From: Dysgonomonas mossii DSM 22836
GTDB taxonomy: Bacteria; Bacteroidota; Bacteroidia; Bacteroidales; Dysgonomonadaceae
Assembly (NCBI RefSeq): GCF_000213575.1
Contig: NZ_GL892006.1
Coordinates: 268,614-332,613 of the forward strand
Direction: 5' to 3'
DNA length: 64,000 nt
Within the stretch, counting starts at the first letter, position 1; the number at the start of each line of letters is the position of its first letter. The translations under genes were made by a program, and so were the position numbers. Positions 14,247 through 64,000 of this stretch are shown piece by piece. The notes under the pieces are model-generated. The model was given only the letters and a program-made list of their open reading frames with translations. It did no database searches and was not told where the DNA came from.

Positions 14247-14260
14247 CACTACTCGAAATT

Positions 14261-14318
14261 AAGGGAATGGGACTTCCCTGTTATAAACCGCTAATAAAGT
14301 AGCTGATAGTTCCTGCTT
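14261..14318 (+). promoter_or_regulatory. Fluoride riboswitch aptamer (crcB motif)
   Basis: The crcB-motif landmarks occur in order: stem GGGAA (14263-14267) with TTCCC (14275-14279) enclosing TGGGAC; then AAACCGC (14285-14291); then GCTGATAGTTCCTGC (14302-14316), corresponding to the conserved GCUGAUGACUCCUAC. The downstream genes eno, CLC(F) and a DUF190-like gene are typical fluoride-riboswitch cargo, which independently supports the call. Confidence 0.88.
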
Positions 14319-14373
14319 AACTTAATCAATAACTGGTTATGAGCGGGTTTTCTTTTATATTAATTACTATCAG
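14286..14373 (+). promoter_or_regulatory. Probable expression platform of the fluoride riboswitch
   Basis: The aptamer strand CTGATAGT (14303-14310) is perfectly complementary to ACTATCAG (14366-14373), an anti-aptamer pairing. Separately, AACCGCT (14286-14292) can pair with AGCGGGTT (14342-14349, one bulge), followed by TTTTCTTTT, which would make a terminator. These are read by eye and have not been folded. Confidence 0.5.
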
Positions 14374-14465: not shown

Positions 14466-15749
<1,284 letters not shown>

Positions 15750-62904: not shown

Positions 62905-63147
62905 GCTTTCTTCTTTATTTTAGTTTTATATTGATCTAAACAAAAATGCGAATAACAAAAATAACAATTTTTTGCTTTGAGGGGGTAAGAAGATCTAAGA
63001 AATATAGTCTTTCTCCACACTCCGACCAATCATATCCTTTAATCCATTGATTATTCACACAAAACTAAATAGGTGAATACCAAAAACATAATAAAGTATA
63101 ATAAAACCTAATCGCTCGGTATCGCATTCCATTTAAGAAAAGTTCTT

Positions 63148-63179
63148 TTTGGCAGTTCCCGAAGAAAGCATTACTTTTG
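63148..63179 (+). promoter_or_regulatory. mgtE promoter
   Basis: TTTG (63148-63151), exactly 20 bases, then TACTTTTG (63172-63179): a close match to the Bacteroidota -33/-7 consensus. Predicted start near 63186, leaving a leader of about 160 bases. Confidence 0.75.
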
Positions 63180-63237
63180 CAGCGGTTTTAACGCCCCCTA
63201 CTCATTTTGGGCTAGTATTCACTAAAAATTAAGAATC

Positions 63238-63297
63238 ATGGACGAAGACCCCTATCCGAGTTACAGAAACAAAACAGAAGTATTAACCTCTCTGTAA
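63238..63297 (+). CDS. MgtL-like leader peptide of mgtE
   Basis: A 19-codon ORF, MDEDPYPSYRNKTEVLTSL, between the mgtE promoter and gene. Its acidic and alternating-proline start (DEDPYP) is like enterobacterial MgtL (MEPDPTPLP...), whose nascent chain destabilises the ribosome at low Mg2+. The last codons and stop (63289-63297) form part of one of two alternative helices controlling the mgtE Shine-Dalgarno site. The role is inferred; the ORF, composition and pairing are read directly. Confidence 0.65.
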   Translation: MDEDPYPSYRNKTEVLTSL

Positions 63298-63340
63298 AGG
63301 GTCTTATTGTGATTTCCTTACAGAGATAAAGTAAGGAGAT
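63289..63340 (+). promoter_or_regulatory. Switch element controlling mgtE translation
   Basis: CCTTACAGAGA (63316-63326) can pair with TCTCTGTAAAGG (63289-63300; 11 bp, one bulged A), leaving the SD free. Alternatively ATTTCCTTAC (63312-63321) pairs with GTAAGGAGAT (63331-63340; 10 bp, one G-U), hiding the strong SD AAGGAGAT just before ATG 63347. The two helices share 63316-63321 and exclude each other. Confidence 0.65.
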
Positions 63341-63346
63341 TGCATC

Positions 63347-64000
63347 ATGAGTGAAATAATAATCCGCCTCCAACAGCTTATTGAAGACAAAAGCTGGAAA
63401 ATCGTAAAACAAGAACTTAACAACCTCGATTCTGTTCAGATAGCAGAAATCATTGCCGACATACCAAAGTCTGATCAGATCATTTTATTCCGCCTCTTGC
63501 CACAAGAATTGGCAAAGGAGACTTTCAAACGCCTTTCTCACGACGAAAAAGAAGATATAATCGAAGGACTGGCTGTTAACATCAATGTAGTAACATCTCT
63601 TCTTAATGATCTTGATCCGGACGACCGTACGGCTTTTTTTGAAGAACTACCGGGCGAAGTGAGCCAGCGTCTGATGCAGATATTATCGGACGAAGAAAGA
63701 GAAATCACCACCAAGCTACTGGGCTTCCCAAAAGATAGTATCGGACGTCTGATGACACCCGAATACGTCGCTGTAAGACCATACTACACTGTAGAACAGG
63801 CTATAAACCATATCCGCAAGTTCGGACAAGACTCTGAAACACTAAATGTAATATACATCGTAGATGATAATTGGAAGCTTATCGCCGATATCCGCATCAA
63901 GGAAATAATTTTGGCTTCCGCCAACCAGACTATCGGCGAGCTTAGCGACAATCGGGTTATCTCGCTTAACGCATACGACGATCAGGAAGTTGCCGTAAAA
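63347..64000 (+). CDS. mgtE: Magnesium transporter MgtE (5' part)
   Basis: The first 218 codons are in the window. They cover the N-terminal MgtE_N superhelical domain (IIIRLQQLIEDKSWKIVKQEL...LFRLLPQELAKETFKRL...DRTAFFEELPGEV) and the start of the first CBS domain (GRLMTPEYVAVRPYYTVEQAINHIRKF, about residues 135-200). The membrane channel domain lies beyond the edge. MgtE gates Mg2+ uptake by binding Mg2+ in its cytosolic domain. The start ATG 63347 has an AAGGAGAT SD site 6-8 bases upstream, unusual for this phylum, embedded in the switch element. Confidence 0.93.
   Translation, partial: MSEIIIRLQQLIEDKSWKIVKQELNNLDSVQIAEIIADIPKSDQIILFRLLPQELAKETFKRLSHDEKEDIIEGLAVNINVVTSLLNDLDPDDRTAFFEELPGEVSQRLMQILSDEEREITTKLLGFPKDSIGRLMTPEYVAVRPYYTVEQAINHIRKFGQDSETLNVIYIVDDNWKLIADIRIKEIILASANQTIGELSDNRVISLNAYDDQEVAVK

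Follow-up and report, generated by a model that had tools for sequence, protein, structure and literature searches.

How is the translation of mgtE controlled in Dysgonomonas mossii, and what part does the short open reading frame in front of it play? The window, a 64,000-nt stretch of the D. mossii genome, ends within mgtE, which encodes 460 amino acids in the genome. Its product contains an MgtE_N domain (PF03448, E 5.7e-21), and the full protein scores 408.7 bits against TIGR00400 (cut-off 232.75). A first-pass annotation had described, upstream of this gene, a consensus promoter, a 19-codon leader ORF resembling mgtL and two alternative helices; on rereading the window, all of these coordinates were right to the base. 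The elements are as follows.

63148..63151, forward strand: promoter -33 element TTTG, read from the sequence by comparison with the consensus
63172..63179, forward strand: promoter -7 element TACTTTTG, read in the same way
63238..63297, forward strand: leader ORF (uORF) MDEDPYPSYRNKTEVLTSL with stop, 19 codons, from ATG at 63238 to a TAA ending at 63297
63245..63251, forward strand: region 1, AAGACCC, the EDP codons of the uORF, with region 2' as partner (covariation; partner-swap permutations)
63289..63300, forward strand: region 2, the anti-sequestering arm, which includes the uORF stop (covaries with region 3; 2:3 duplex compared with shuffles)
63299..63305, forward strand: region 2', GGGTCTT, partner of region 1 (window fold; covariation; partner-swap permutations)
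63312..63326, forward strand: region 3, partner of region 2 (via 63316-63326) or of region 4 (via 63312-63321) (folds, covariation)
63331..63340, forward strand: region 4, the mgtE Shine-Dalgarno (SD) sequence AAGGAG, hidden in 3:4 (covariation)
63347..64000, forward strand: mgtE, extending past the window end

The two promoter elements match TTTG/TAnnTTTG, which we take to be the Bacteroidota-type promoter consensus. Helix 2:3 joins 63289-63300 to 63316-63326 with A63298 bulged, and helix 3:4 joins 63312-63321 to 63331-63340. As both helices use region 3, they are mutually exclusive, and AAGGAG sits within the second, just where it had been placed. The earlier pairing map was sound for 2:3 and 3:4 and lacked two further pairings of the window fold: AAGACCC (63245-63251) with 63299-63305, termed 1:2', and TTACAGA (63261-63267) with TCTGTAA (63291-63297), a single-sequence prediction. 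The 3' part of this one leader folds with z = -2.69. The leader as a whole gives an unremarkable z of only -1.22, and its single-sequence fold is therefore given no weight. The window sequence by itself makes a modest case for the leader; the case is settled by comparative evidence.

Relatives of MgtE were matched in 17 of 25 genomes of the genus, 52 of 101 of the family and 30 of 393 of the order at E<=1e-45. Of the 52 mgtE loci with at least 45% identity to the query, 51 were testable once L026, with 6 nt of upstream sequence, had been dropped. A uORF beginning M[DEKN][DE] lies close upstream of mgtE in 32 of these and is absent from 19. Two loci, L028 and L029, in which no uORF start was found, retain the CTTTCCTGTAA...ACAGGAAAG pairing upstream of mgtE and are perhaps decayed leaders. 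The uORF is also absent from the more distant MgtE loci (31-44% identity), including the genus's other MgtE clade, and several distant loci carry an MDEGEY-like frame that overlaps the gene start and was left out of the counts. As a separate observation, 12 of 19 loci of that other clade (L006-L008, L010, L011 and L013-L019) share a different conserved leader, TTCATCCCAAAAAC...GTTTTTGTATT. GGATGAA stands near the gene start in 11 of the 12 and could pair with TTCATCC, and five of these loci scanned against Rfam gave no match at the leader, which is possibly a second, unrelated Mg2+ control RNA.

A covariance model trained only on the mgtE leaders (R1), applied to 393 genomes of the order, matched 40 genomes at E<=0.1 and 35 at E<=0.01, of which 19 were training sequences. 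A Mg2+ uptake gene follows each of the other 16 places at E<=0.01: 13 corA (one checked with Pfam, the others called by similarity to it), one mgtA (by NCBIfam) and two mgtE_N-CBS genes. The five weaker matches (E 0.01-0.1) comprise two corA, two mgtE_N-CBS and G217 (E 0.034), which does not precede a Mg2+ gene and was judged a chance match. Under strict filters, R1 matched three of 395 genomes of the class: the genome of D. mossii itself and two others of the same order. The D. mossii genome has one R1 match; in this search its two corA genes were without the leader.

A second model, R2, whose structure is 2:3, was run on the same 393 genomes and matched 67 at E<=0.1. Each of its 47 places at E<=1e-3, nine of them outside the training set, precedes a Mg2+ uptake gene. 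Between 1e-3 and 0.02 this holds for five of eight places, including a second mgtA, and the other three (G343, G451 and G352:C150; E 0.001-0.02) are not before Mg2+ genes and were judged chance matches. Of 16 weaker places, four were examined: an MDEGPA ORF without a called gene stands at one, and the other three look like chance. Where an mgtE_N-CBS gene was inspected, an Nramp gene follows it in two of three genomes and is missing from the third. One of these Nramp proteins is most like PDB 7qia (E 1.8e-112). The excerpts of PMC4072509 describe pairs of an mgtE fragment and Nramp, often under M-box control; some were shown to transport Mg2+, and for one Mn2+ transport is considered likely.

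A sequence pattern made of the uORF start and arms 2 and 3, and containing nothing of the downstream gene, found 51 stretches among 84,980 bacterial and archaeal species, each represented by one genome. Every record title is that of a member of the Bacteroidota, a phylum to which familiar gut bacteria belong (two titles confirmed in taxonomy), and all 51 stretches precede, by similarity, mgtE (25) or corA (26). Most are from Bacteroidales, the others being one Flavobacteriales isolate and three Cytophagales or Cyclobacteriaceae MAGs. Outside Bacteroidales, the leader was seen before corA in L131 (Mesonia oceanica), L105, L138 and L154. Between the CorA proteins of Mesonia and Anaerophaga (L140) the identity is 89.6%, which suggests that the gene was acquired together with its leader by transfer. 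Judged from these sequence comparisons, the leader is real and conserved, and in every confident case its gene context ties it to Mg2+ transport. The first-pass annotation had proposed control of MgtE rather than MgtA; the mgtE context stands, and the restriction to mgtE falls, as corA, mgtA (two genomes) and mgtE_N-CBS genes, with or without Nramp, are also preceded by the leader.

Combining the leaders gave 94 sequences, or 86 after eight identical ones were dropped; 43 of the 86 derive from the pattern and 32 were selected by the regular expression, so that they are conditioned on parts of the uORF start. All 86 leaders have two or three acidic residues at positions 2-4; 75 of these leaders were partly selected for acidity. 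The regular expression required M[DEKN][DE] and thereby selected residues 2-3 of the 32 mgtE leaders. Residue 5 was unselected, and is Pro in 28 of these and Ser in four. Of the 86 uORFs, 82 have Pro and four have Ser at position 5, and the typical start is M-D-[DE]-x-P. The acidic, Pro-containing start described by the first-pass annotation is thus general in its acidic part, and Pro5 is not universal, being replaced by Ser in four of 86 uORFs and absent from four distant corA leaders. The uORF has 10-21 residues in the 86 leaders and 9-23 in distant leaders, and the remainder of the peptide is more variable. Among the 43 non-pattern leaders, codon 3 is GAA, GAC, GAG or GAT, and codon 5 is CCG (17), CCT (13), CCC (7), CCA (2) or TCC (4). 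This freedom at third positions, with the class of residue kept, is as expected if the uORF start is translated. Region 1 is constrained by RNA pairing as well, so that its conservation does not act on the peptide alone.

The uORF stop falls between -12 and +3 nt from the CTG of region 2 in all 84 leaders that could be placed (two of the 86 could not). In 35 leaders it is found at +3, inside CTGTAA, and in the other 49 at -4 to -12, so placed that a ribosome terminating there would cover region 2 or come up to its edge. Upstream, the -7 element TANNTTTG occurs 15-110 nt before the uORF in 75 of 85 nonredundant leaders (one of the 86 was dropped from this count), with 4.5 expected from composition shuffles. 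TTG at the -33 spacing is present in only 25 of these 75.

Covariation was assessed on an alignment of the 32 mgtE leaders (A3) against shuffled and slid-helix controls, with statistics that ignore relatedness. Jointly, 3:4 and 1:2' show 30 cells with two-sided changes, compared with 12.2 in shuffles (0/500 as high), and 80.3% of cells are paired, compared with 40-56% in slid versions. The control slid by +1 reached 32 two-sided cells, yet with 56% paired and about half the covariation score. Taken singly, 3:4 has standard pairs in 92.7% of cells and two-sided changes at six of its nine pairs (32 sequences), and 1:2' is 64.3% paired. Helix 2:3 has 28 two-sided cells compared with 11.6 in shuffles (0/500) and 6-24 in slid versions, and 81.5% of its cells are paired, compared with 40-53% when slid. 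The number of 2:3 pairs with a two-sided change, six, is no excess over shuffles (155/500). All three helices beat the shuffles on most measures, and the slid versions on paired cells and covariation score. RNAalifold found 3:4 on A3 and picked 2:3 on the broader alignment A4, to which every third pattern leader was added and from which five of 67 prepared leaders were left out. The conservation in relatives that the first-pass annotation had proposed as its check is therefore seen in both parts, with the uORF in 32 of 51 mgtE loci and helices that covary.

Correspondingly, region 1 pairs better with its own 2' (-10.2 kcal/mol) than with the 2' of other leaders (-8.5 kcal/mol), with 0/5000 permutations as extreme in 84 leaders and likewise 0/5000 in the mgtE, corA and non-pattern subsets; two of the 86 leaders were dropped, and the permutation ignores relatedness. 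At one 1:2' pair, leaders with Asp, Gly or Val at codon 4 have A-U, G-C or U-A, respectively. The 2:3 duplex failed to reach z<-2 in 16 of 86 leaders, a test that is circular for the pattern-derived ones, as the pattern contains both arms; with these removed, 33 of 43 reached it. It was also reached in 13 of 22 distant leaders and missed in nine, often with quite different arm letters; 13 of the 22 had been found with R2, whose structure is 2:3, and are partly conditioned on it. Part of the misses is explained by failure of the script to place region 3.

The gene context of the leader is that of the M-box, which according to the excerpts of PMC4072509 precedes corA, mgtE, mgtA and mgtE-fragment genes with Nramp, and the RNA might accordingly sense Mg2+ directly as a metal-binding riboswitch, with an incidental uORF. 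Helix 1:2' formally crosses 2:3, and the two could form a pseudoknot, which Mg2+ might stabilise. A direct sensor of this kind is nevertheless unlikely: apart from the uORF start, arms and SD, the leader varies and offers no conserved unpaired stretch that could be an aptamer core, codons 3 and 5 of the conserved uORF start are free at their third positions, and the stop is kept near region 2 in different frames. A known riboswitch was rejected, since Rfam, M-box included, gave no match at the window leader, in 62950-63500 at E<=1 or at the leaders of the other loci scanned; two cobalamin matches among the scanned loci lie away from the leaders. Elsewhere in the window, a fluoride riboswitch (RF01734) occupies 14254-14322 on the forward strand, upstream of an ORF at 14469-15749 that presumably encodes enolase.

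In classical attenuators, 1:2, 2:3 and 3:4 pairings alternate and a ribosome covers region 1. The leader shares this layout, and could in principle respond to an aminoacyl-tRNA, as in trp or his attenuators (tRNA-Asp, tRNA-Pro or tRNA-Tyr), or gauge general EF-P or ABC-F capacity. Codon use would fit such a role, being uneven in the 86 leaders: Asp2 is GAC in 77 of 77 and Tyr6 is TAT in 71 of 72, although GAT outnumbers GAC (78 vs 55) in four genes of the window. The GAC bias is, however, also expected from 1:2' pairing, from which it could stem; Asp2 is plausibly explained in this way and Tyr6 is not. Moreover, the uORF has no run of a single residue, Asp and Glu interchange as do Gly, Asp and Val, and, four chance covariance-model matches aside, all identified targets are Mg2+ uptake genes and none an amino-acid gene, which makes an amino-acid or capacity gauge improbable. 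That termination and reinitiation couple the uORF to mgtE, with the helices as mere spacers, would suit the gap of about 41-64 nt between uORF and gene start in 31 of 32 mgtE leaders (L059 has an earlier gene start), and is very improbable given that the target gene has its own SD within a covarying helix, one arm of which is contested by another helix that shows compensatory changes.

The reading preferred here, to which a probability of roughly three in four is assigned, is that the leader acts in cis as a translational attenuator for genes of Mg2+ import. The layout of such an attenuator is present: a leader ORF, arms pairing as 1:2, 2:3 and 3:4, and the SD in arm 4. As anatomy, the mechanism is well supported by covariation, stop placement and gene context drawn from sequence; its function is predicted. 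Transcription would start upstream of the short uORF (9-23 residues in the leaders seen). When the uORF is fully translated, the ribosome would terminate on or just before region 2 and make it unavailable to region 3, which would then pair with region 4 and hide the SD (OFF). A ribosome held or lost on the acidic, Pro-containing start would leave region 2 free; made before region 4, it would capture region 3 and the SD would be open (ON). Region 1, which consists of the same acidic and Pro codons, would pair with 2' when free of ribosomes. We infer that Mg2+ is the signal, that the hold-up, by drop-off or pause, is a Mg2+-sensitive destabilisation like that at MgtL of E. coli and Salmonella, and that low cytosolic Mg2+ would turn the transporter on. 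Against this reading stand 19 of the 51 related mgtE loci, the genus's second MgtE clade and the two corA genes of D. mossii, all without the uORF.

Folding models with and without ribosomes bear on this sequence of events. In full-length equilibrium folds, 3:4 usually prevails, and the SD stays largely closed even when a ribosome is placed on the first codons. The mean unpaired probability of the SD in 86 leaders is 0.20 with a ribosome on the first codons, 0.04 with one at the stop and 0.08 without any. Moving the ribosome from the stop to the first codons raises it in 80 of 86, by more than 0.2 in only 27. This modelled effect is weak, having the right direction and a small size, and because the SD is mostly closed at equilibrium, the ON state would have to be kinetic. 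Nascent RNA was modelled, free of pseudoknots, as the leader lacking region 4 in 41 non-pattern leaders (three of the 86 leaders were dropped for want of motif or upstream sequence). The 2:3 core exceeded 0.5 in 32 of 41 without a ribosome, in 37 with a ribosome on the first codons and in one with the ribosome at the stop. This last result is in part built into the model, whose mask covers region 2, and what it conveys is that the stop is located there. In L027, an exception, region 2 is far enough downstream for 2:3 to stay formed (0.97) with the ribosome at the stop. For the window leader the values are 0.04, 0.94 and 0.00, respectively, and the models say that in this species 1:2' tips the leader towards OFF as long as no ribosome sits on the first codons. 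As 32 of the 41 leaders form 2:3 without a ribosome, the weight of 1:2' may differ between species. Considered together, the nascent and equilibrium results imply that the order of synthesis and the arrival of the ribosome at the stop would decide the state.

A wider proposal, which we lean towards with less assurance, is that this is a Bacteroidota-wide sensor in which the Mg2+-dependent stability of the ribosome on an acidic, Pro-containing peptide sets the translation of Mg2+ importers. It would be a convergent, translation-level counterpart of MgtL, spanning corA, mgtE, mgtA and mgtE_N-CBS/Nramp genes as the M-box does elsewhere, with sensing codons that double as an RNA arm. If true, ribosome destabilisation would serve as an ion gauge in a second phylum, where it probably evolved apart; a likely Mg2+ regulon of the Bacteroidota would be named; and the leader would be a marker from which Mg2+ importers among the CorA, MgtE and Nramp-type proteins of that phylum could be predicted. 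A general question becomes testable as well, whether low Mg2+ aborts acidic and Pro-containing nascent chains outside Gammaproteobacteria. A literature search of openly licensed PMC texts found no description of the leader, in line with the first-pass annotation, which knew of none, nor of any Mg2+ control leader in Bacteroidota.

Among known systems, ermC-type attenuators have 1:2, 2:3 and 3:4 arms with the SD in arm 4, which is released when a ribosome stalls on the leader ORF. The Bacteroidota leader shares this arm layout and differs in the signal, which in the ermC type is an antibiotic, and in the peptide. The mgtE motif of Thioalkalivibrio is likewise an RNA structure before mgtE that encloses the SD and AUG; it is described from that genus only, and as a riboswitch candidate, in the excerpts of PMC11109978. 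The M-box (ykoK) precedes the same gene classes, including an mgtE fragment with Nramp (excerpts of PMC4072509), and is a direct aptamer, while the Bacteroidota leader has no Rfam match; in M. tuberculosis, an M-box controlling a uORF is reported (PMC12810186). For the corA motif, which like the mgtE motif is distinct from the Bacteroidota leader, the reported range is Gammaproteobacteria and metagenomes only (excerpts of PMC6429828). The corL leader of corA in Salmonella and E. coli also combines a uORF with two folds, and its translation is inverse to that of corA, but it is Rho-dependent, starts with UUG and has fewer acidic and Pro residues (excerpts of PMC11552253).

The closest likeness is to the mgtL leader of mgtA in Salmonella and E. 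coli, described in the excerpts of PMC11282234 and PMC11552253. There too, a short uORF with an acidic, Pro-containing start precedes a Mg2+ importer gene, two exclusive RNA folds are possible and completed translation is proposed to be OFF; efficient translation of mgtL or corL goes with OFF, and low Mg2+ aborts translation at acidic and Pro-containing starts (same excerpts). The Bacteroidota leader differs in phylum and in its targets, corA, mgtE, mgtA and the mgtE_N-CBS gene. The leader pattern matched only Bacteroidota-titled records in the 84,980-species set. The output differs as well: that of mgtL is Rho-dependent transcription termination (excerpts of PMC11282234 and PMC11552253), whereas the second fold of the Bacteroidota leader would hide the SD.
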